A DNA stretch of 64,000 bases from Nocardioides sp. InS609-2 (GTDB lineage Bacteria; Actinomycetota; Actinomycetes; Propionibacteriales; Nocardioidaceae): NCBI RefSeq assembly GCF_023208195.1, contig NZ_CP060034.1:1054001-1118000 (forward strand), written 5' to 3'. Below the pieces are notes generated by a model that was not told where the DNA came from, did not search any database, and saw only the letters and a list, made by a program, of their open reading frames with translations. Below are positions 6,986-60,195 of this stretch, in pieces; within the stretch, counting starts at the first letter, position 1, and the number at the start of each line of letters is the position of its first letter. Both the position numbers and the translations under genes were made by a program.

Positions 6986-7809
6986 CCGTCACAACCACCG
7001 GCCGGCTCAGGGCCGACCGCGTCACCGTCGGGTACGGCGCCGAGCCGGTCGTCCGCGACCTGAGCCTGGCCATCCCCGACGGGAAGGTCACGACGATCGT
7101 CGGTCCCAACGGCTGCGGGAAGTCGACGTTGCTGCGCACCCTTGCGCGGCTGCTCTCGCCCACCTCGGGCACCGTTCTGCTCGACGACCAGCCGATCGGC
7201 TCGATCTCCACCCACGAGATCGCCACCCGAATGGCGCTGCTGCCGCAGGCGCCAGTCGCCCCGGAGGGCCTGCTCGTCCGCGATCTGGTCGGCCGGGGGC
7301 GCCACCCGCACCAACGCTGGTTCAGCCAGTGGTCGCGGCAGGACGAGGACATCGTCGACGCGGCGCTCGTCATGACCGACACCCTCGACCTGCGTGACCG
7401 CCCGCTCAAACAGCTCTCCGGTGGCCAGCGCCAGCGGGCCTGGATCGCGATGACGCTGGCCCAGGACACCGACCTGATGTTGCTCGACGAGCCGACGACG
7501 TACCTCGACCTGGCCCACCAGGTCGAGGTGCTCGACCTGGTCACCCGGCTCAACCGCGAACGCGGCCGCACCGTCGCGATGGTGCTGCACGACCTCAACC
7601 TGGCCGCGCGCTACAGCGACGTCATCGTCGTCATGAAGGCCGGCGTCATCGTCGAGCAGGGCACTCCCAGCGCGGTGTTCACCCCAGCGATGCTCAGCGC
7701 CGTCTTCGGCCTCGACGCCCGCGTGCTCACCGATCCCCACACCGGGCTGCCGATCGTGGTGCCCACCTCGTCCGCCGCACACCCCGTCCCCCAAGGAGCC
7801 GCTTCATGA
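6982..7809 (+). CDS. Iron-siderophore ABC transporter ATP-binding protein
   Basis: A 275-residue ABC ATPase that would drive siderophore import through the two upstream permeases. All nucleotide-binding motifs are present: Walker A GPNGCGKST (about residue 43), Q-loop MALLPQAP, signature LSGGQRQRAWIAM, Walker B LMLLDEPTTYLDL and the switch histidine in VLHDLNLAARY. The TTYLDLAHQ sequence is typical of FepC/FhuC-type ATPases. Both ends overlap neighbours by 4 bp, so expression should be tightly coupled. Confidence 0.94.
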   Translation: MTVTTTGRLRADRVTVGYGAEPVVRDLSLAIPDGKVTTIVGPNGCGKSTLLRTLARLLSPTSGTVLLDDQPIGSISTHEIATRMALLPQAPVAPEGLLVRDLVGRGRHPHQRWFSQWSRQDEDIVDAALVMTDTLDLRDRPLKQLSGGQRQRAWIAMTLAQDTDLMLLDEPTTYLDLAHQVEVLDLVTRLNRERGRTVAMVLHDLNLAARYSDVIVVMKAGVIVEQGTPSAVFTPAMLSAVFGLDARVLTDPHTGLPIVVPTSSAAHPVPQGAAS

Positions 7810-51227: not shown

Positions 51228-52037
51228 TCAGCGCTGCTCCACGACCACCCGCCGCGACGCCCGCCGCAGGGTGCTGAGGATCGCCGGGCCGAGCACGATC
51301 AGCATCAGCGCGGTGGTGACCGCCCGGCCGGTGTCCCAGCTGCCGGTGGACGTCAGCAGCGTGTAGACACCGAAGCGTTGCAGGTTCTCCACCAGTGGCG
51401 CGCCGGCGACGAACGACAGCCCGCCCTCGTGCCCGGGCACGACGATGCCGAGGGTGAAGGGCCAGCTGGAAAGGTTCATCAGCAGGCCGAACGCGTACGC
51501 CGACACGACGCCGTACACGACCAGCACCGCGATCTCGGCGCGACCGGTGAAGCGACGCGGCAGGAACCCGGCACCCATGCCGATCCACGCCGACACCAGC
51601 ATCTGGAACGGCAGCCACGGGCCGACGCCGGCGGTCATCAGGGCGCTCGCGAAGAGCGACGTACAGCCCAGCGCGAAGCCGAACCCCGGCCCGAACACCC
51701 GACCGGCCAGGATCAGCAGGAAGAACACCAGCTCGATGCCGGCGGTGCCCGCGCCGAGCCCGCGCAGGATCGCGTTCACGGCGCTCAGCACGCCGAGGAT
51801 CGCCAGCACGCGCGCGTCCATGCCGCCCTCGGAGAACTCCGCGAGCACCACCACGATCACCAGGGGCAGCAGCGCCAGGAAGATGAACGGGGGGTCGATC
51901 CGCGCGTTCTCGGGCACCCGCACCAGCAGTGGCCAGGCCAGCATCATCAGGCCGGCGACGGAGGCGACGGAGAGTACGACGACCGACCGGGCCCGCAGCG
52001 GCACGGCCCGGAGCGCGAGCTGCCCGGACTCACCCAT
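51228..52037 (-). CDS. ECF transporter S component, candidate cobalamin-binding membrane subunit
   Basis: A 269-residue membrane protein with about seven hydrophobic segments; the N-terminal hydrophobic region is followed by ILGVLSAVNAILRGLGAGTAGIELVFFLLILAGRVFGPGFGFALGCTSLFASALMTAGVGPWLPFQMLVSAWIGMGAGFLP, the substrate-specific S-component pattern. It is the last gene of the operon and overlaps the fused ATPase by 8 bp. The cobalamin riboswitch at the operon head makes B12 or a B12 precursor the probable ligand. The ligand is inferred, not read from the sequence. Confidence 0.82.
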   Translation of the reverse strand: MGESGQLALRAVPLRARSVVVLSVASVAGLMMLAWPLLVRVPENARIDPPFIFLALLPLVIVVVLAEFSEGGMDARVLAILGVLSAVNAILRGLGAGTAGIELVFFLLILAGRVFGPGFGFALGCTSLFASALMTAGVGPWLPFQMLVSAWIGMGAGFLPRRFTGRAEIAVLVVYGVVSAYAFGLLMNLSSWPFTLGIVVPGHEGGLSFVAGAPLVENLQRFGVYTLLTSTGSWDTGRAVTTALMLIVLGPAILSTLRRASRRVVVEQR

Positions 52038-53634
52038 CGGTCACCGACAGGGCCTCGGCGACCTCGTCGACGCGCAGCCACGGCGCGCCCAGGATCTTGG
52101 TGACCTGCGGGGCGAACGCCGGCGACTGTGCCAGCACGGTGCGCGCCGGACCGGCCGAGACGACCTCGCCCGAGGCCATCACGATCACCTCGTCGGCGAC
52201 CCGGGCCGCGAACTCGACGTCGTGGGTGGACACGAGCACGGCGTGGGCGGCATCGGCGAGGTCGCGCAGGATCGCGGCCAGCGTCTCTTTGGCCGGGTAG
52301 TCGAGGCCACGCGTCGGCTCGTCGAGCAGCAGCACCCGCGGCCGGGCGGTGAGCACGATCGCCAGCACCACCGCCAGCCGCTGACCCTCCGAGAGGTCGC
52401 GCGGATGCGCGGCGCGGTCGATCCCGGGCACCAGCCGGTCGAGCAGGTCGCTGCACGTGCCCGCCTCGGCACCGGTGTCGGCGGCCGCGCACTCCTCACG
52501 GACCGACTCGAGGTAGAGCAGGTCGGCGGCTGTCTGCGGCACCAGGCCGACCTGGGCCCGCCGGGCGGGCGCGTCGAGCTTCGCCGGGTCGAGCCCGCCG
52601 GCCTCGACGCTGCCCGCAGTGCGTCGCCCGGATCCCTGGAGCGCCCACAGCAGCGACGACTTGCCCGCGCCGTTGCGGCCCATCAGCGCGGTGACGCCTC
52701 CGGCGTGCAGGTCGAGGTCAACGCCCGCGACCGCGCGGGTGCGGCCGTGCGTGACGCTCACCCCGCGGGCGGTCAGCAGCACGTCGCTGCCCACGCGCCC
52801 GTCGTACGGCGTCGCGCCAGCAAGCCGGGAGGAGAGTGAGGCAGCGCGCCGGCGGGCATCGCGCACGCTGAGCGGCAAGGGGTCCCAGCCGGCGAGCCGG
52901 CCGAGCTCGACGATCGGGGGAACCACCGGCGAGGAAGCCAGCACGGTCGCCGGCTCGTCGACGAGCAGCCGGCCGTCGCCGGTGAGCAGCGCCATCCGGT
53001 CGGCGAACGGCACCACGCGCTCGAGTCGGTGCTCGGCGAGCAGCACGGTCAGCCCGAGGTCGTGCACCAGCCGGGTGAGCGTGGCCAGCACCTCCTCGGC
53101 CGCGGTCGGGTCGAGGGCGGACGTGGGTTCGTCGAGCACCAGCAGCCGCGGATGCGTGGTGAGCACCGACCCGATCGCCACCCGCTGCTGCTGGCCTCCG
53201 GAGAGCGTGCGCAGGTCACGCTCGCGCAGGTCGGCCAGTCCCAGCAGGTCGAGCGTCTCCTCGACGCGACGTCGCATCGTGTCGCCGGGCAGGCCGAGCT
53301 GCTCCATGCCGTAGGCGAGCTCCTCCTCGACCGTGTCGGTGACGAACCCGGCCAGCGGGTCCTGGCCGGCGAAGCCGATCACATGCGCCCGTTCGCGCGG
53401 TGGCTGGTGCAGGATGCTCCGCCCGTCGAGAAGTACGTCGCCGGTCAGCCGGCCGCCGCTGAACCGTGGCACCAGGCCGGTCAGCACCCCGAGGAGCGTG
53501 GACTTGCCGACACCCGTACGTCCGGAGACCAGCACCAGCTCGCCGGGCTCGAGGGCGAGGTCGACGTGGTCGAGCACCGCCGGTGACTCGTCGTCGGCGG
53601 AGTAGGAGAAGACGATGTCGCGCAGCTCGATCAT
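52030..53634 (-). CDS. ECF transporter fused ATP-binding protein (EcfA-EcfA')
   Basis: A 534-residue tandem ABC ATPase. The first half has Walker A SGRTGVGKSTLL (about residue 40), signature LSGGQQQRVAIGS and Walker B LLVLDEPTSALDP. The second half has GRNGAGKSSLL, the variant signature LSEGQRLAVVLA and VLLLDEPTRGLDY. Both halves have Q-loops and switch His residues (LLAEHRLE; VSTHDVEF), so the fused chain supplies the complete energising module. It overlaps the T component by ATGA and the S component by 8 bp. Confidence 0.93.
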   Translation of the reverse strand: MIELRDIVFSYSADDESPAVLDHVDLALEPGELVLVSGRTGVGKSTLLGVLTGLVPRFSGGRLTGDVLLDGRSILHQPPRERAHVIGFAGQDPLAGFVTDTVEEELAYGMEQLGLPGDTMRRRVEETLDLLGLADLRERDLRTLSGGQQQRVAIGSVLTTHPRLLVLDEPTSALDPTAAEEVLATLTRLVHDLGLTVLLAEHRLERVVPFADRMALLTGDGRLLVDEPATVLASSPVVPPIVELGRLAGWDPLPLSVRDARRRAASLSSRLAGATPYDGRVGSDVLLTARGVSVTHGRTRAVAGVDLDLHAGGVTALMGRNGAGKSSLLWALQGSGRRTAGSVEAGGLDPAKLDAPARRAQVGLVPQTAADLLYLESVREECAAADTGAEAGTCSDLLDRLVPGIDRAAHPRDLSEGQRLAVVLAIVLTARPRVLLLDEPTRGLDYPAKETLAAILRDLADAAHAVLVSTHDVEFAARVADEVIVMASGEVVSAGPARTVLAQSPAFAPQVTKILGAPWLRVDEVAEALSVTDG

Positions 53635-54704
53635 CCGACCACCCGCGGCGGTGGCGCGAGCACGCCCGCCAGGGCACCCACGAGGATGCCGACCAGGGCG
53701 AGCACGCTGACGACGGGCCAGTCGACGACGCCGGGATGGGCGACCAGCGGCTGCTGCTGGCCAAGGGACCACCCGACGTACCCGGTGAGGAAGCCGGTGA
53801 CGGCGACGAGGATGTCGGGCCACAGCCACGCGTCCGGCCGGTAGCGGGTGCGCTCGACGCGGCGGCCCGCCGACTCCAGACCGGCGACGGCGGCGACGGC
53901 TCCCCCGACCAGCATCGGCACGGCCAGCGCCCGCGGGGCGGTGCGGTCGAGGACGGCGTAGACACCGACGCAGATGCCGCACAGCCCCACGAGTAGGAGG
54001 GTGCCGGTGGTCCAGCGCTGGCGACGGGAGAGCCCGGGAGCACGGCCGTAGCCGCGCAGGTCCATGCCGGCAGCCAGTGTCAGCGAGCGCTCGAGCGCGT
54101 CCTCGAGCACCGGCACCAGGAAGCGGCGCAAACGTCCGACTCGGCCCGTGCTGCCGCCACGCAGGGCCTGCGCCGCACGCACCCGCCGGGCACTGTCGGC
54201 CAGCTGCGGGAAGATCGTCACCGCGACGACCAGCGACGTACCGATCTCGTAGAGAGCGGGCGGCACCGACTTCAGTAGCCGCTTGGGGTTGGCCAGCGCG
54301 TTGGCCGCGCCGACACACACCACGATCGCCGCCAGTCGCAGCCCGTCGTACAGGCCGGCGAGCAGCCCCTCGCTGGTCAGTGGTCCGAGCAGCCGCACGC
54401 CGGTCACCCAGCCGGGCAGCGGGACAGCGGGCAGGTCGAGCAGCACATGACCGCCCTCGACGCCCCCGAAGACAATGCGGAACAGCACCCGGATCACCAC
54501 GATCGCGACGCCGAGCCACAGGTACAGCCGGAACGACCGCGACCACGGGTGGTCACCGCGACGCAGGGCCACGACCAGCGCGGCGACGGCCACGAGCAGG
54601 AGCAGGATCAGCGGGTTGGTGGTGAATGACGCAGCAGCGGCCAGCCCGATCGCCCACAGCCACCACGCCATCGGGTGGAGATCACGGGCGATCCGCGAGC
54701 TCAT
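53631..54704 (-). CDS. ECF transporter T component (EcfT)
   Basis: A 357-residue membrane protein that scaffolds the S component and ATPases. Four or more membrane segments flank the long cytoplasmic region with the two coupling helices: VRAAQALRGGSTGRV and AAGMDLRGYGRAPG, the Ala-Arg-Gly signature motifs of EcfT. It follows the DUF4430 gene with a 4-bp overlap and precedes the fused ATPase with another. It appears intact. Confidence 0.92.
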   Translation of the reverse strand: MSSRIARDLHPMAWWLWAIGLAAAASFTTNPLILLLLVAVAALVVALRRGDHPWSRSFRLYLWLGVAIVVIRVLFRIVFGGVEGGHVLLDLPAVPLPGWVTGVRLLGPLTSEGLLAGLYDGLRLAAIVVCVGAANALANPKRLLKSVPPALYEIGTSLVVAVTIFPQLADSARRVRAAQALRGGSTGRVGRLRRFLVPVLEDALERSLTLAAGMDLRGYGRAPGLSRRQRWTTGTLLLVGLCGICVGVYAVLDRTAPRALAVPMLVGGAVAAVAGLESAGRRVERTRYRPDAWLWPDILVAVTGFLTGYVGWSLGQQQPLVAHPGVVDWPVVSVLALVGILVGALAGVLAPPPRVVG

Positions 54705-55552
54705 CGAGGCGACCCCCGCCGTCGTACGACGATCGCAGCGCCGCCGCCGACCAGCAGCGCGGCCAGCACGGCCAGCACCAGCCAGGTCGGCACGGCCGAC
54801 GCGGCGGCCGAGTCGTCGCCCGCATCAGAGTCGGGCGCCGAGACGGGCGAGGGCGACTCGGCAGACGACGGGGCGACCGAGGAGGGGACAGCAGACGAGG
54901 GCAGGGCCGTCGGCTTCTTGGTCGGCTTCTTCTTCGGCGGTGACTTCGACGGAGTGGCCGACGGCGTGGGGGTGGCAGTCGCTGACGGCGTGGGCGCCGA
55001 AGTCGGGGTGGGCGTCGGCTTCTTCGTCGGGGACGGAGTGGGCGTCGGCTTCGGAGTGGGCGTCGGCTTGGGCGACGGCCGCACGCTCGCGGGCACCCCG
55101 GGGACCCGGCGGTCGGCGGAGGACTGCCAGGCGAGGCCGACGTAGCCGCCGGAGGGCACGCGCAGCCCGCCTGCGGCGATGCTGGAGTAGACCCACGAGC
55201 CGTTCTTGCCGTCGGACCAGAACAGGCCCCAGTAGGCATCACCGGGCGGGGTGTTGACGCACGGGTCGTCGGCGGGGACGCCGTTGATCCGGCAGATGAA
55301 GCCCGGGAACCGCTGCACGTAGGTCAGCGAGTAGCCGGCGGCGCCGAGCATCGCCGCGGCGTTCTTGCTCGCTCCCCCGGCATCGCACGAGGTCTGTACG
55401 CCGCCGCCCAGCGTGCCGAAGTCGACCACGACGCTGACGCCGGACGACGTCGCGCAGGTCGCCGCACCTGCGGGGGGAACAGGGACGCTGACGCCCGTCG
55501 CCGCGGCCAGGATGACCGCGGCGACGAAGCGTGCAGCGAGGCGAAGCGTCAC
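54701..55552 (-). CDS. Membrane-anchored DUF4430 domain protein with Pro-rich stalk (split transcobalamin beta-domain-like)
   Basis: A 283-residue exported protein. A signal peptide (about residues 1-31) is followed by a DUF4430-like domain, residues 32-145, with SVVVDFGTLGGGVQTSCDAGGASKNAAAMLGAAGYSLTYVQRFPGFICRINGVPADDPC and YWGLFWSDGKNGSWVYSSIAAGGLRVPSGGYVGLAWQ, with four cysteines for two disulfides. A Pro/Thr/Ser/Lys-repeat stalk of about 100 residues then leads to a single membrane helix (VPTWLVLAVLAALLVGGGAAIVV) and an RRR stop. DUF4430 is the C-terminal domain type of eukaryotic transcobalamin and intrinsic factor. GTG 55552 is 6 bp after the upstream stop, so translation is coupled. 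Confidence 0.85.
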   Translation of the reverse strand: MTLRLAARFVAAVILAAATGVSVPVPPAGAATCATSSGVSVVVDFGTLGGGVQTSCDAGGASKNAAAMLGAAGYSLTYVQRFPGFICRINGVPADDPCVNTPPGDAYWGLFWSDGKNGSWVYSSIAAGGLRVPSGGYVGLAWQSSADRRVPGVPASVRPSPKPTPTPKPTPTPSPTKKPTPTPTSAPTPSATATPTPSATPSKSPPKKKPTKKPTALPSSAVPSSVAPSSAESPSPVSAPDSDAGDDSAAASAVPTWLVLAVLAALLVGGGAAIVVRRRGSPR

Positions 55553-55557
55553 GAGTG

Positions 55558-56916
55558 TCAGTTGCGGACGAGGACGTTCGTCTTGGCGACGGAGTCGGCC
55601 GTCTTGACCTTCACCGTGCGCTTGGCGTTGCCGGTGGGCATCGTCAGCTTGGCCGCGACCTTGGCCCCGCTCGCCTTGCCGACGATCCGCTTGAAGTCGC
55701 CCTTGACGGAGATGCAGGCGCGCTCGCCACCGGACAGGCCGAAGGTCTTGAAGCGCACCTTCGTGCCGGCTGCGGCACGCGCGGTATTGCCCCTGACCGA
55801 CAGCTTGTCGGTCGACGCGGGCGCCCACTGCAGGACCGGCAGGGCCTGGGCGGTCGCCCGGCGCCACTGGTCGGTGGTCTCGTCGGTGATGCCGGCCGTG
55901 CGGGCCGCCTTGACCGCCGAGTCGTCGTACGCGACGGCACCGAGGCTCTTCGAGAGGGCGCTGCGGCAGCGGCTCTTGTCGATCGGCTGACGCTTGCGCA
56001 CCCAGACGGCCGCACTGGCAGCGGCGTCCTTGTTGTTCAACGAGCCCAGTGCCCAGCCGGCCAGGCCGGTGCTGTTGGTGTTGGCCTTGCCGGTGGCACC
56101 GACCGTGCCGAAGGCGCCGCTGGCGGCCTGCTGCGCGGCCAGCCACGTGCCGGCCTTGTCCAGCGCGGCCTTGACCTCGGGCGAGTTGTCACCCGACGCG
56201 GCCAGGTTGACGACGGCCAGCGAGGTGGCGTCGAGGTCGGCGGCGCTGTCGGCCGCCCCGTCGACACAGCCCTGCGCGCCGGTCAGGCTCTTACTGAAGT
56301 TCAGCCGGAACCAGCCACCCGCGCACTGCTGCGCGAGGAGGAACTTCACCGCGTCGGCCGCGCGGGCCGACTTGGCCTCGGTGAGCGCCCGGGCAGCGAA
56401 CGACTGGCCGACGACGTTGGCGAAGTCGCCGTACTTGGACTTGTCGGAGATGCGACCGGTGACCGGTGCGGCGGTGGCCACCCGGCCCTCGAGGCGGGTG
56501 ACCAGGTTGACCCCGCCGTACGACGTCGGGTTGCCGCCGGCGACGCGCGCGAGCGTGGCGGCCTTGGCCGTTGCGCCGGCGTAGGTGCTGTCGGGGTCGT
56601 CGGTGCCGCCGGAGATGTAGGACTGGATCTTCGAGCCGACTGCGCCGCTGATGGTCTTCACCGCCGAGTCGTTGCCGGTCTCGTCGAGGCCGAGCGCGAC
56701 GTCGATGCTCAGCCCGTAGTCGGGACCGAACTCGCCGACGACGAGGCCGTCCTTGAGCTGGGCCTTGATCCAGTTGGACGCCAGCGTGGCGGCCGAGCCG
56801 TCGAGCTTCCCGGGAGCGGCCTTGGGGGCTGCCTGGGCGGGGGTGCCCGTCAGGGTGGTGAGAGTGAGTGCCGCCGAGGCCACGAGGACTCCGGCGGTGC
56901 GCAGGGTGTGCGCCAT
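55558..56916 (-). CDS. Secreted alpha/alpha-barrel protein (prenyltransferase/transcobalamin-fold), candidate B12-binding subunit
   Basis: A 452-residue exported protein. ATG 56916 follows AAGGA and starts a signal peptide cleaved near Ala29. Residues 35-360 contain repeated helix-pair motifs with Gly and aromatic or polar residues at turns (EFGPDYGLSIDVALGLDETG, TSYGGVNLVTRLEG, DLDATSLAVVNLAASG, NTNSTGLAGWALGSL), typical of the terpene cyclase/prenyltransferase toroid that is also the alpha domain of transcobalamin and intrinsic factor. A beta-rich tail follows (about 370-452). It is first in an operon led by a cobalamin riboswitch, so a B12-capture role is far more likely than prenyl transfer. 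Confidence 0.85.
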   Translation of the reverse strand: MAHTLRTAGVLVASAALTLTTLTGTPAQAAPKAAPGKLDGSAATLASNWIKAQLKDGLVVGEFGPDYGLSIDVALGLDETGNDSAVKTISGAVGSKIQSYISGGTDDPDSTYAGATAKAATLARVAGGNPTSYGGVNLVTRLEGRVATAAPVTGRISDKSKYGDFANVVGQSFAARALTEAKSARAADAVKFLLAQQCAGGWFRLNFSKSLTGAQGCVDGAADSAADLDATSLAVVNLAASGDNSPEVKAALDKAGTWLAAQQAASGAFGTVGATGKANTNSTGLAGWALGSLNNKDAAASAAVWVRKRQPIDKSRCRSALSKSLGAVAYDDSAVKAARTAGITDETTDQWRRATAQALPVLQWAPASTDKLSVRGNTARAAAGTKVRFKTFGLSGGERACISVKGDFKRIVGKASGAKVAAKLTMPTGNAKRTVKVKTADSVAKTNVLVRN

Positions 56917-57009
56917 GATGTTCCTTCCCGCTGCTCGCGGGCTGCCCCGGCGAAATTCGGGGCGAACCCGCCGTTGTTCCACGACAGCGATGTTCGGGAC
57001 GCTCACGGG

Positions 57010-57125
57010 GATGGTCCGGCTCGCCAGGACCAGCCATTTGATGGCCGGTCCGGGCCTACGGTTGCGGGTCAGCGCCGGGTTTCGACCGGCTTCCCTCCGC
57101 GAACGAAGTTTGATGTTGTCTGACG
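57010..57125 (-). ncRNA. Cobalamin (B12) riboswitch
   Basis: On the minus strand the leader contains GAGGGAAGCCGGTCGAAACC then GGCGCTGACCCGCAACCGTA, a full match to the B12-box pattern (GGGAA..GGT..AA.CC..., GC.G.CCCGCAAC.GT) of AdoCbl/cobalamin riboswitches. A stem rich in GGACC/GGTCC and TGGCGAGCC continues 3' of the box. The region begins 94 bp upstream of the ATG at 56916. Termination or blocking of the ribosome-binding site could mediate control; no U-tract terminator was evident, so translational control is plausible. Outer boundaries are approximate. Confidence 0.92.
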
Positions 57126-57146
57126 CCGCAGACTACCTCTAGTCCA

Positions 57147-57190: not shown

Positions 57191-58684
57191 TCAGGTCAGC
57201 TTCTCGAGGATGAGCTCACGCACGCGGCCGGCGTCGGCCTGCCCGCGCATCTCCTTCATCACCGCGCCGATGAGCGCTCCGGCAGCCGCCACCTTGCCGT
57301 CGCGGATCTTGTCGGCGACGTCGGGGTTGGCGGCGATCGCGTTGTCGACGGCCGTGCCGAGGGCACCGTCGTCGGACACGATGGCCAGCCCACGGGCGGC
57401 CACGATCTCCTCGGGCGTGCCCTCGCCGGCGTACAGGCCCTCGAAGACCTGCCGCGCCAGCTTGTCGTTGATCGAGCCTGCGTCGACGAGCTTCTGTACG
57501 CCGGCCACGTCGGTCGGGGAGACACCGAGATCGGCCAGGTCGACACCGGTGTCGTTGGCCCGCCGGGCCAGTTCGGAGAGCCACCACTTGCGGGCCGTCT
57601 GCGGGCTGGCGCCGGCGGCGATGGTCTCCTCGACGAGCAGGAGCGCACCGGCGCCGACGGTGTCGCGCATCTCGAGATCGGTGAAGCCCCAGTCGGACTG
57701 CAGGCGGGCCCGCCTGTCCTGCGGCGGCTCGGGCAGCTCGGAGCGCAGCTGCTCGACCCACTCGCGACTTGGCGCGACCGGCACCAGGTCGGGCTCGGGG
57801 AAGTAGCGGTAGTCCTCGGCGTCGGACTTCTCGCGACCGCTGGTGGTCACCCCGGTGTCCTCGTGCCAGTGACGCGTCTCCTGGAGGATCGACCCGCCGC
57901 CGTCGAGGATCGCGGCGTGCCGCTGCATCTCGTAGCGGACCGCCCGCTCGACGCTGCGCAGCGAGTTGACGTTCTTGGTCTCGGTGCGGGTCCCGAGCGA
58001 GCCGGTGCCGACCGGCGCCAGCGACAGGTTCACGTCGGCGCGGATCGAGCCCTGGTCCATCCGGGCATCCGAAACGCCGAGCGCGACGATCAGGTCACGC
58101 AGCTGCGAGACATAGGCGCGGGCCACGGCCGGGGCCTTCTCGCGCGCACCCATGATCGGCTTGGTGACGATCTCGATGAGGGGGATGCCGGCTCGGTTGT
58201 AGTCGACCAGCGAGTAGTCGGCGCCGTGGATGCGGCCCGTGGCGCCACCGACGTGCAGCGACTTGCCGGTGTCCTCCTCCATGTGGGCGCGCTCGATCTC
58301 GATCCGGTAGGTCTCGCCGTCCACCTCCACTTCGGTGAAACCCTCGAAGGCGATCGGCTCGTCGTACTGGGAGGTCTGGAAGTTCTTCGGCATGTCCGGG
58401 TAGAAGTAGTTCTTCCGCGCGAACCGGCACCACTCGGCGATCTCGCAGTTGAGCGCGAGGCCGATGCGCATCGCCGACTCGACCGCGACCCGGTTGACGA
58501 CCGGCATCGCGCCGGGGAGGCCGAGGCAGGTCGGGCAGGTCTGCGTGTTGGGCTCGGCGCCGAACCCGGTCGGGCAGCCGCAGAACATCTTCGAGTTGGT
58601 GTTCAGCTCGACGTGGACCTCGAGGCCCATGGCGGGGTCGAACTTCTCGAGCGACTCCTCGAACGTCAGCAGTGCGTCACTCAT
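57191..58684 (-). CDS. gatB: Asp-tRNA(Asn)/Glu-tRNA(Gln) amidotransferase subunit B
   Basis: A 497-residue subunit that phosphorylates Glu/Asp on tRNA and delivers it for amidation. The N-terminal signature [47 protein letters not shown] (zinc-binding cysteines), [23 protein letters not shown] segment, [16 protein letters not shown], and the C-terminal YqeY-like tail ([33 protein letters not shown]) are normal. ATG 58684 overlaps the gatA stop by 4 bp. Confidence 0.97.
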
Positions 58685-60195
58685 CGGGTGGCTCCTTCGA
58701 GGGTGGGCGCCTGGTCGAGCAGCGGGCCGCCCCACTGCTTCTCGAGCAGCGTCTCGACGGCTGCGCCGACCCGGTAGACCCGGTCGTCGGCGAGTGCCGG
58801 GGCCAGGATCTGCAGGCCCGACGGCAGGTTGTCCTCGGCGGCGAGGCCGTTGGGCACCGAGATGCCCGGCACGCCGGAGAGGTTGGCGGGGATGGTGGCG
58901 AGGTCGTTGAGGTACATCGCCAGCGGGTCGTCGATCTTCTCCCCCAGCTTGAACGCCGTCGTGGGCGCCGTGGGCGAGATGAGCACGTCGGCCTTCTCGA
59001 AGGCGGCGTCGAAGTCGCGCGAGATGAGGGTGCGCACCTTCTGGGCCTGGCCGTAGTAGGCGTCGTAGTAGCCGCTCGACAGGGCGTAGGTGCCCAGGAT
59101 GATCCGGCGTTTCACCTCGTCGCCGAAGCCGGCGTCGCGGCTGGCCCGCATGACCTCCTCGGCCGAAGGGTTGCCCTCGGGCAGCACGCGCAGGCCGTAA
59201 CGCATCGCGTCGAACTTCGCGAGGTTGCTCGACGCCTCCGCCGGCAGGATCAGGTAGTACGTCGCGAGCGCGTGCACGAAGTGCGGGCACGACACCTCCA
59301 CGACCTCGGCGCCGGCCGCGACCATCACGTCGACGGACTCCTGGAACCGGGCGAGCACGCCGTCTTGGTAGCCCTCGCCGCCCAGCTCCTTCACCACACC
59401 GATGCGCACGCCGGCGAGGTCACCGGTCGCGCCCTGGCGGGCCGCCTCGACGAGCGATGGCATCGGTTGGTCGATGCTGGTGGAGTCGAGCGGGTCATGG
59501 CCGCCGATGATCTCGTGGAGCAGCGCGGCGTCCATGACGGTGCGGGTCACGGGGCCCGCCTGGTCGAGCGAGTTGGCGAGCGCGACGAGGCCGTAGCGCG
59601 AGACGCCGCCGTAGGTCGGCTTCACGCCGACGGTGCCGGTCACGGCGCCGGGCTGGCGGATCGAGCCGCCGGTGTCGGTGCCGATGGCCAGCGGGGCCTC
59701 GAAGGCGGCCACGGCCGCAGCGGACCCGCCGCCCGAGCCGCCGGGGATGCGGTCGAGGTCCCACGGGTTGTGCGTGGCGCCGTACGCCGAGTGCTCGGTG
59801 GAGGAGCCCATCGCGAACTCGTCCATGTTGGTCTTGCCGAGGATCGGCAGGCCGGCGGCGCGCAGCCGGGCGACCACGGTCGCGTCGTACGGCGGGATCC
59901 AGCCCTCGAGGATCTTCGAGCCGCACGTCGTGGGCAGCCCGCGGGTGGCCATCACGTCCTTGACGGCGATCGGCACGCCGTCGAGGGTGCTGGCGGCGTT
60001 GCCGGCCGCACGGCGCTCGTCGGAGGCTGAGGCCTGGGCCAGAGCGCCCTCGCGGTCGACGTGAAGGAACGCGTGTACGGCGCCGTCGACGGCGTCGATG
60101 CGGTCGAGGTGGGCCTCGGTGAGCTGCACGGAGGTGACGGTGCCCTCGGCAAGGGCCTGGGCCATGTGGGCGGCGGTGCTGCGGGTCTCGGTCAT
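58681..60195 (-). CDS. gatA: Asp-tRNA(Asn)/Glu-tRNA(Gln) amidotransferase subunit A
   Basis: A 504-residue amidase that generates ammonia from Gln for tRNA amidation. The Ser-Ser-Lys triad is seen in [14 protein letters not shown] (Lys), [31 protein letters not shown] (cis-Ser and nucleophile Ser) and [25 protein letters not shown]. Length and motifs are complete. ATG 60195 overlaps gatC's stop by one base and gatB's start by four, so gatCAB is one operon. Confidence 0.97.

Follow-up and report, generated by a model that had tools for sequence, protein, structure and literature searches.

The window analysed here is a stretch of 64,000 nucleotides (positions 1,054,001 to 1,118,000 of contig NZ_CP060034.1) from Nocardioides sp. 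InS609-2; it is a part of a 4.5-Mb single-contig genome (G000), and protein searches gave Nocardioides proteins as the closest named relatives of its products. On the minus strand the window carries five consecutive genes in the order alpha, beta, EcfT, fused EcfA-EcfA' and S component. The first two encode exported proteins, and the other three encode an energy-coupling factor (ECF) transporter. We considered this operon as a candidate system for the uptake of corrinoids, vitamin B12 (cobalamin) among them. Its features, from the 5' leader to the last gene, are as follows.

57026 to 57145, minus strand: cobalamin riboswitch aptamer (short form) in the operon 5' leader; match to RF00174, 25.8 bits, E 2e-4
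55558 to 56916, minus strand: alpha protein (TCa), open reading frame (ORF) of 452 amino acids (aa) from the ATG at 56916; exported alpha/alpha-barrel protein
55819 to 56811, minus strand: alpha/alpha barrel (toroid) of alpha, residues 36-366, as modelled
55561 to 55809, minus strand: C-terminal all-beta domain of alpha, residues 370-452, from DSSP of the model
54701 to 55552, minus strand: beta protein (TCb), ORF of 283 aa with a GTG start
55103 to 55462, minus strand: predicted transcobalamin-type beta domain, residues 31-150, from fold comparison of an AlphaFold2 model
54716 to 54787, minus strand: predicted C-terminal membrane anchor helix of beta, residues 256-279; helix in the model, Kyte-Doolittle maximum 2.75
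53631 to 54704, minus strand: EcfT, CbiQ-family transmembrane coupling protein, 357 aa; PF02361, 46.6 bits
52030 to 53634, minus strand: fused EcfA-EcfA' ATPase, 534 aa, with two ABC_tran stretches
51228 to 52037, minus strand: ECF S component, 269 aa; PF12822, 39.5 bits; last gene of the operon

The alpha and beta genes are separated by a 5-bp gap, and the next three junctions are overlaps of 4, 4 and 8 bp, exactly as given in a preliminary description of this DNA. The identities that it had assigned to the transporter genes were also borne out by Pfam. EcfT matched the CbiQ family PF02361 (46.6 bits against a cut-off of 25), the S component was assigned to PF12822, ECF_trnsprt (39.5 bits against 30.7), and the two ABC_tran stretches, that is, two ABC ATPases, were located within a single protein. 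The latter scored 255 and 250 bits against the NCBIfam models TIGR04521 and TIGR04520, both below the family cut-offs. An ECF transporter with its own module is characterized by EcfT, two ABC ATPases and a co-encoded S component, and all three were present.

The beta protein is composed of a signal-like stretch, a globular domain, a linker rich in Pro, Thr and Ser, and a C-terminal membrane helix. In an alignment of 34 sequences the globular domain had four invariant cysteines. From the model, the fold of this domain is predicted to be specifically that of B12 carriers, which agrees with the transcobalamin-like fold proposed earlier for the second exported protein. The label DUF4430, which the same protein had been given, stood as a profile-profile relation and failed at the Pfam cut-off. 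Membership in Pfam DUF4430 (PF14478) was rejected, with no match at E 1 in the window protein or the window genome and none at E 0.01 among the 34 aligned members. In profile-profile comparison, a broadened beta profile matched DUF4430 members with Prob 92.6% and E 4.4e-7, while a profile made of close relatives only gave a weak match (Prob 13.6%, E 0.002). One relative, P0203, carries the DUF4430 name in UniRef. Fold and profile comparison thus suggest a relation of beta to DUF4430. The NCBIfam model SCO2322_fam did not match beta in the window, and an LPxTG sortase signal was rejected (0 of 34 sequences).

The alpha protein has an N-terminal signal-like stretch and, by hydropathy, no further strongly hydrophobic stretch. 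Its AlphaFold2 model (mean pLDDT 85.6) supported the alpha/alpha barrel proposed earlier for this protein, a fold shared with many enzymes; C-terminal to the barrel is an all-beta domain, conserved and about 80 residues long. Similarity to the NCBIfam model SCO2321_fam was weak, 33.7 bits against a cut-off of 300. Searches of PDB sequences with alpha, beta or their alignments found no transcobalamin, and transcobalamin was absent among the 50 matches listed for alpha by VIA, an absence that excludes nothing. Two other identities of alpha were rejected. The motif of type II terpene cyclases, DxDD, occurred in 0 of 35 alpha sequences; a loose QW-like motif in 11 of the 35 counts against this rejection. 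A thioester motif was likewise found in 0 of 35 sequences, and TED_complement was the commonest weak Pfam match among them (15 of 35).

We searched for the S component at E 0.001 in related genomes and at E 1e-10 in genomes across the class, and found it in 54 of 58 and in 158 of 296, respectively. Within the genus, loci were fetched from 33 of the 35 other S-positive genomes (the fragmented G004 and G031 were left out), and five distant S paralogue loci (L071-L075) were kept out of the counts. The five-gene architecture is not a product of chance: 32 of these 33 loci had an alpha and a beta like those of the window. The exception, L070, had a different beta, and alpha was not found there. For the class, we took 40 loci from 39 genomes with 21 family codes, chosen to span families and not at random, and counted alpha and beta on either strand and at any place in the locus. 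Beta was present in 39 and alpha in 25 of the 40; beta occurred without alpha in 14, alpha never without beta, and neither was found in L136. The broadened beta profile holds 31 domains from the loci themselves, so the beta search in those loci is partly circular; without this profile beta was already detected in 38 of 40, and weakly in L137. Among 20 order-level loci, 12 had a beta of the SCO2322 type and no alpha, and eight had neither (13 and 8 of 21 if L070 is added). The eight comprised two operons of EcfT, EcfA and S component (T-A-S operons; L088, L091), five loci with S and without EcfT (L078, L092, L093, L094, L096) and one with no S match (L097).

In Streptomyces, where the counterparts of alpha and beta are the families SCO2321_fam (NF053823) and SCO2322_fam (NF040672), 80 loci were returned and 69 of them used, the other 11 having failed a 6-kb rule. 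Alpha, beta, EcfT and EcfA lay ahead of S in 69 of 69. A strict gene-order test was passed by 53 of these loci, all 69 having all components; the rest perhaps reflect an artefact of stop-to-stop reading frames. Across the 296 class genomes, SCO2322_fam matched in 124 at E 0.001 (102 over the cut-off), with S in 120 of the 124, and SCO2321_fam matched in 120 at E 1e-6 (26 over the cut-off), with S in 98 of the 120. A conserved linkage of both exported genes with the ECF genes and a B12 riboswitch was upheld in the same-genus, class and Streptomyces loci.

Some variants of the arrangement were seen. Eleven of the 32 same-genus loci had a second alpha near the operon (L042, L044-L047, L050-L052, L055, L056, L063); in L047 it sits between beta and EcfT. 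In L105 the alpha gene is downstream of S, and L100 and L109 have a second riboswitch-alpha-beta unit in tandem. An S gene followed by an alpha match and a Pfam-level DUF4430 match was located on one strand within 3.1 kb at G146:C1:3656072-3659127 (plus strand). Three loci of family code f29 (L130, L131, L132), from genomes of 1.5-2.2 Mb, kept the riboswitch, beta, EcfT, EcfA and S; alpha was not found. S paralogues without EcfT in L078, L092, L093 and L094 lie about 2.7-2.9 kb behind a riboswitch core, and the gene in between is, by eye, cobT in L078 and L093, with cobS also in L078. In one genome (G023:C1:1166890-1167655) the S component is split into two overlapping pieces, either a decayed copy or a sequencing error.

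The riboswitch match of the window surfaced in the E-value search. It ends 109 nt ahead of the alpha ATG and aligns with the model end to end (model positions 1-189), with internal deletions. A degenerate pattern of the riboswitch core, with three substitutions allowed, had a single match in the whole window, at 57096 on the minus strand. Within the genus, all 32 loci of the window type had this pattern immediately ahead of an alpha gene; it was also found 69-395 nt upstream of the first operon gene in 37 of 40 class loci, and was present in 50 of 69 Streptomyces loci. As controls, it matched once in 1.05 Mb of mononucleotide-shuffled sequence (both strands) and seven times on the opposite strand of the loci. 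Among the loci searched with Rfam, 5 of 15 at genus level, including the divergent L070, and 11 of 13 at class level (exceptions L107 and L118) had a match upstream of the operon that reached the gathering score.

In the window genome as a whole, seven RF00174 matches were listed at E 1, four of them above the cut-off. Five of the seven cluster at 3.64-3.67 Mb, a region of B12 synthesis genes, where 9 of 10 scanned proteins received NCBIfam names: CobN, CobF, CobQ, precorrin-6A reductase, CobT, CobBC, cob(I)yrinate adenosyltransferase, BluB and CbiE/T. L104 has a strong cobalamin riboswitch (7349-7573, plus strand) that is divergent from the operon and sits ahead of a gene which by eye is MetE, the B12-independent methionine synthase. 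Among 30 loci with DUF4430 genes from a phylum-level search, five (L241, L246, L236, L245, L250) had a riboswitch core upstream of the gene and on its strand, with four substitutions allowed in the core and without a shuffle control; the riboswitch in L241 scored 87.9 bits in Rfam and was the only cobalamin match among the 20 DUF4430 loci searched.

Taken together, we think it likely that corrinoids (B12 or cobinamide) are taken up by the products of this operon, through a split transcobalamin-like binder combined with a dedicated ECF importer. What the sequences and models show is the order of the genes, the place of the riboswitch, a barrel for alpha, a fold predicted to be that of transcobalamin for beta, and the conserved linkage across the class. 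We infer corrinoid binding, assembly of a sandwich, hand-over to the S component and repression by B12 in the following form. The tethered beta domain would capture a corrinoid at the cell surface, and the separately encoded alpha barrel would close over the corrinoid on beta. The vitamin would then be handed to the dedicated S component and imported with EcfT and the fused EcfA-EcfA' ATPase, and a high intracellular cobalamin level would turn off the whole operon through the riboswitch. Since many operons keep beta without alpha (14 of the 40 class loci), the transporter probably depends more on beta than on alpha, which would be a lid that raises affinity.

Human transcobalamin holds B12 sandwiched between its two domains. 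When these domains were produced as separate proteins, the alpha domain accompanied by the receptor CD320, they assembled only upon addition of a cobalamin, and structures of the isolated beta domain were determined in complex with cyanocobalamin and also with cobinamide (PMC5599065). A binder that is split in nature is thus mechanistically plausible. In one class locus the two parts are physically linked: the first gene of L103 (L103:6021-9662, minus strand) encodes a 1214-aa product that combines, in a single chain, a beta domain of the transcobalamin type with an Ig domain and an alpha barrel; a second beta domain in another frame and then the ECF genes follow downstream. As the fold of alpha is generic, its link to B12 rests on the operon position, on this fusion and on its partner.

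Several observations weigh against the uptake reading. Foldseek with the beta model returned no match at E 0.001, and alpha, as modelled, fits terpene cyclases better than transcobalamin; its closest solved folds were type II terpene cyclases, with glycoside hydrolases also among the nearest, and transcobalamin (4zrp_A) came no higher than Foldseek rank 43. No core pattern was detected in 3 of 40 class loci (L133, L134, L135), ahead of 5 of 14 order-level T-A-S operons (L084, L085, L088, L089, L091) or in 19 of 69 Streptomyces loci. Neither exported gene was found in three T-A-S operons (L088, L091, L136), and S was not found in 22 of the 120 genomes with a SCO2321_fam match, many of these matches being weak. 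In the window, no RF00174 match reached the Rfam gathering score (25.8 bits at best against 31.5), and the riboswitch named in the preliminary description was borne out by its conserved upstream position and not by the curated score. The match is below that threshold yet credible, judged from sequence, because it coincides with the sole core match in 64 kb, because the same-genus placement is uniform and because some relatives score above gathering. Finally, the window genome holds many genes of de novo B12 synthesis, unlike the usual hosts of related surface proteins as described in PMC1796856. With these genes present, import would be salvage, and the host cell probably both makes and salvages B12.

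The alpha and beta proteins of the Streptomyces type (for reference, SCO2321_fam scored 579 bits for L119 and SCO2322_fam 173 bits for L084) aligned with those of the window type in two blocks each, in swapped order. For alpha, 53 ORFs had swapped blocks, none were colinear, and five showed one block only. Unrotated hhalign comparison gave two swapped blocks with scores of 73.9 and 57.5, while the L119-based profile rotated at residue 240 gave one near-full-length block with a score of 145.2; of the 15 cut points used in the rotation test, those from 180 to 260 scored 133-145. The repeat structure of an alpha/alpha barrel weakens the evidence for permutation a little, and the gain upon rotation in these profile comparisons is still clear. 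For beta, the broadened profile, built without any SCO2322-type protein, showed 30 SCO2322-type ORFs as swapped and none as colinear; the beta of L120 was left unclassified by the script threshold, and its printed blocks were likewise swapped. With the narrow profile the hhalign scores were 31.1 and 25.1 unrotated and 41.4 rotated. The NCBIfam models themselves display the same swap, for example in G070 (the genome of L115) and G111.

We observed that the block orders of alpha and beta agree in all 25 class loci that have both (16 window-like, 9 Streptomyces-like, none mixed), while within the genus both were window-like in 32 of 32 loci. The matched orders could stem from common descent of whole operons, and the loci are therefore not independent events. 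In the beta-grasp fold the terminal strands are adjacent, and a permuted version is known (PMC1949818). We put forward tentatively, as a possibility at somewhat less than even chances, that these actinobacteria have a two-protein, surface-assembled B12 receptor whose halves were circularly permuted in step, each operon holding both in one order, either transcobalamin-like or as in Streptomyces (SCO2321/SCO2322).

The observations could be explained in other ways. The S component might import corrinoids on its own, with beta as a scaffold or assembly factor and alpha as an unrelated exported enzyme or wall-binding protein placed under the riboswitch. ECF-CbrT is not known to require an exported binder. 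This transporter of Lactobacillus is a B12 transporter (PMC5997447), and the explanation would also suit an alpha that is closest in fold to terpene cyclases and glycoside hydrolases, that shows the loose QW-like motif in some sequences and that was not found in 15 of 40 class loci. However, the predicted fold of beta is specifically one of B12 carriers, alpha never occurred without beta in the 40 class loci and matched it in topology in 25 of 25, and no alpha sequence had the cyclase motif DxDD. We regard this explanation as unlikely.

It is quite improbable that cobalt or another B12 precursor is imported in place of corrinoids. The idea arises because EcfT is a member of the CbiQ Pfam family and because cobalt transporters, too, are under B12-riboswitch control; B12 riboswitches precede, or B12 genes adjoin, some presumed cobalt-transporter operons described in PMC2667541. 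Against it, the S component is a PF12822 protein, no CbiM or CbiN match was shown by Pfam among the five proteins, beta has the predicted fold of a corrinoid binder, and S paralogues in other families sit behind the genes read by eye as cobT (L078, L093) and cobS (L078). We give very little credence to a third possibility, that the alpha-beta pair is a cell-surface store of B12 or a competitive binder and is next to the transporter incidentally. The second alpha gene in 11 of 32 same-genus loci and the second riboswitch-alpha-beta unit in L100 and L109 would fit such a role, whereas one functional unit is favoured by the overlaps between reading frames in the window and by the repeated finding of beta directly ahead of EcfT.

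If the operon is an uptake system, its general principle is not new. For surface proteins of the transcobalamin clade of SLBB domains, which are encoded together with CbiO/CbiQ-like genes and often carry a fused alpha/alpha toroid, Burroughs et al. 2007 (PMC1796856) predicted a role in the scavenging of B12 or of B12 precursors. The preliminary description had proposed surface capture coupled to an ECF channel as a new type of vitamin B12 uptake system; the linkage and the predicted beta fold were supported, and the claim of a new type was not upheld as worded, in view of this earlier proposal. According to PMC1796856, the clade is wide in low-GC Gram-positives and planctomycetes and less frequent in euryarchaea, and its hosts tend to be without key enzymes of B12 synthesis. 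The window operon shares with these systems the exported transcobalamin-type beta-grasp domain, the toroid and the CbiO/CbiQ-like genes; it differs in being actinobacterial, in its split genes, in the B12 synthesis genes of the host, in the riboswitch and the dedicated S component, and in the existence of permuted forms.

Similar comparisons can be made with other systems. With the animal carriers transcobalamin, intrinsic factor and haptocorrin, the operon has in common export, the predicted beta fold and an alpha/alpha barrel as the second part. Unlike the animal carriers, where both domains are in one polypeptide, it has two separate proteins from genes 5 bp apart, a membrane-anchored beta, an alpha with an extra C-terminal all-beta domain and, in many actinobacteria, a circular permutation of both parts. 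ECF-CbrT of Lactobacillus delbrueckii is a proven ECF importer of cobalamin and cobinamide (PMC5997447), thus alike in the function proposed here; there, several S components share the ECF module, and an exported binder is unmentioned in the available portions of that source. The surface lipoprotein BtuG of Bacteroides (PMC6143338) is likened by function only: it captures B12 at the surface for a transporter and is under B12-riboswitch control, with the outer-membrane protein BtuB as its partner. SCO2321_fam and SCO2322_fam occupy the same operon position and are homologous to alpha and beta, while the window proteins are below the cut-off (alpha) or unmatched (beta) and have domains permuted relative to the models. 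We found no paper in the open-access literature searched that gives the SCO2321-SCO2325 proteins a function; the one paper there in which these names turned up deals with skin delivery. As far as that literature shows, the actinobacterial form, which is split, permuted, under riboswitch control and equipped with an S component of its own, appears to be a new variant.

Directly upstream of the operon and on the same strand are ORFs at 57191-60195, by eye GatB and GatA of the Asp/Glu-tRNA amidotransferase. A selenocysteine tRNA call by ARAGORN at 59586-59678 (plus strand), antisense within the putative GatA ORF (58681-60195), is probably false.

The uptake reading reaches beyond the window genome, as the operon occurs in Streptomyces and its relatives and the S component was present in about half of the class genomes sampled (158 of 296). 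For SCO2321 and SCO2322, families that are named and have no stated function, a split and permuted transcobalamin would supply a function that can be tested, and the bacterial pair may offer a two-piece model of how transcobalamin closes on B12. It also raises the question of how a vitamin held by an extracellular receptor would pass to an ECF transporter, when direct binding of the vitamin is the mode assumed for such transporters. If the joint permutation is true, an ECF transporter would have a dedicated extracellular sandwich receptor together with a topology switch made jointly by both interacting proteins, and the matched permutation of the two partners would be a natural experiment in protein topology.

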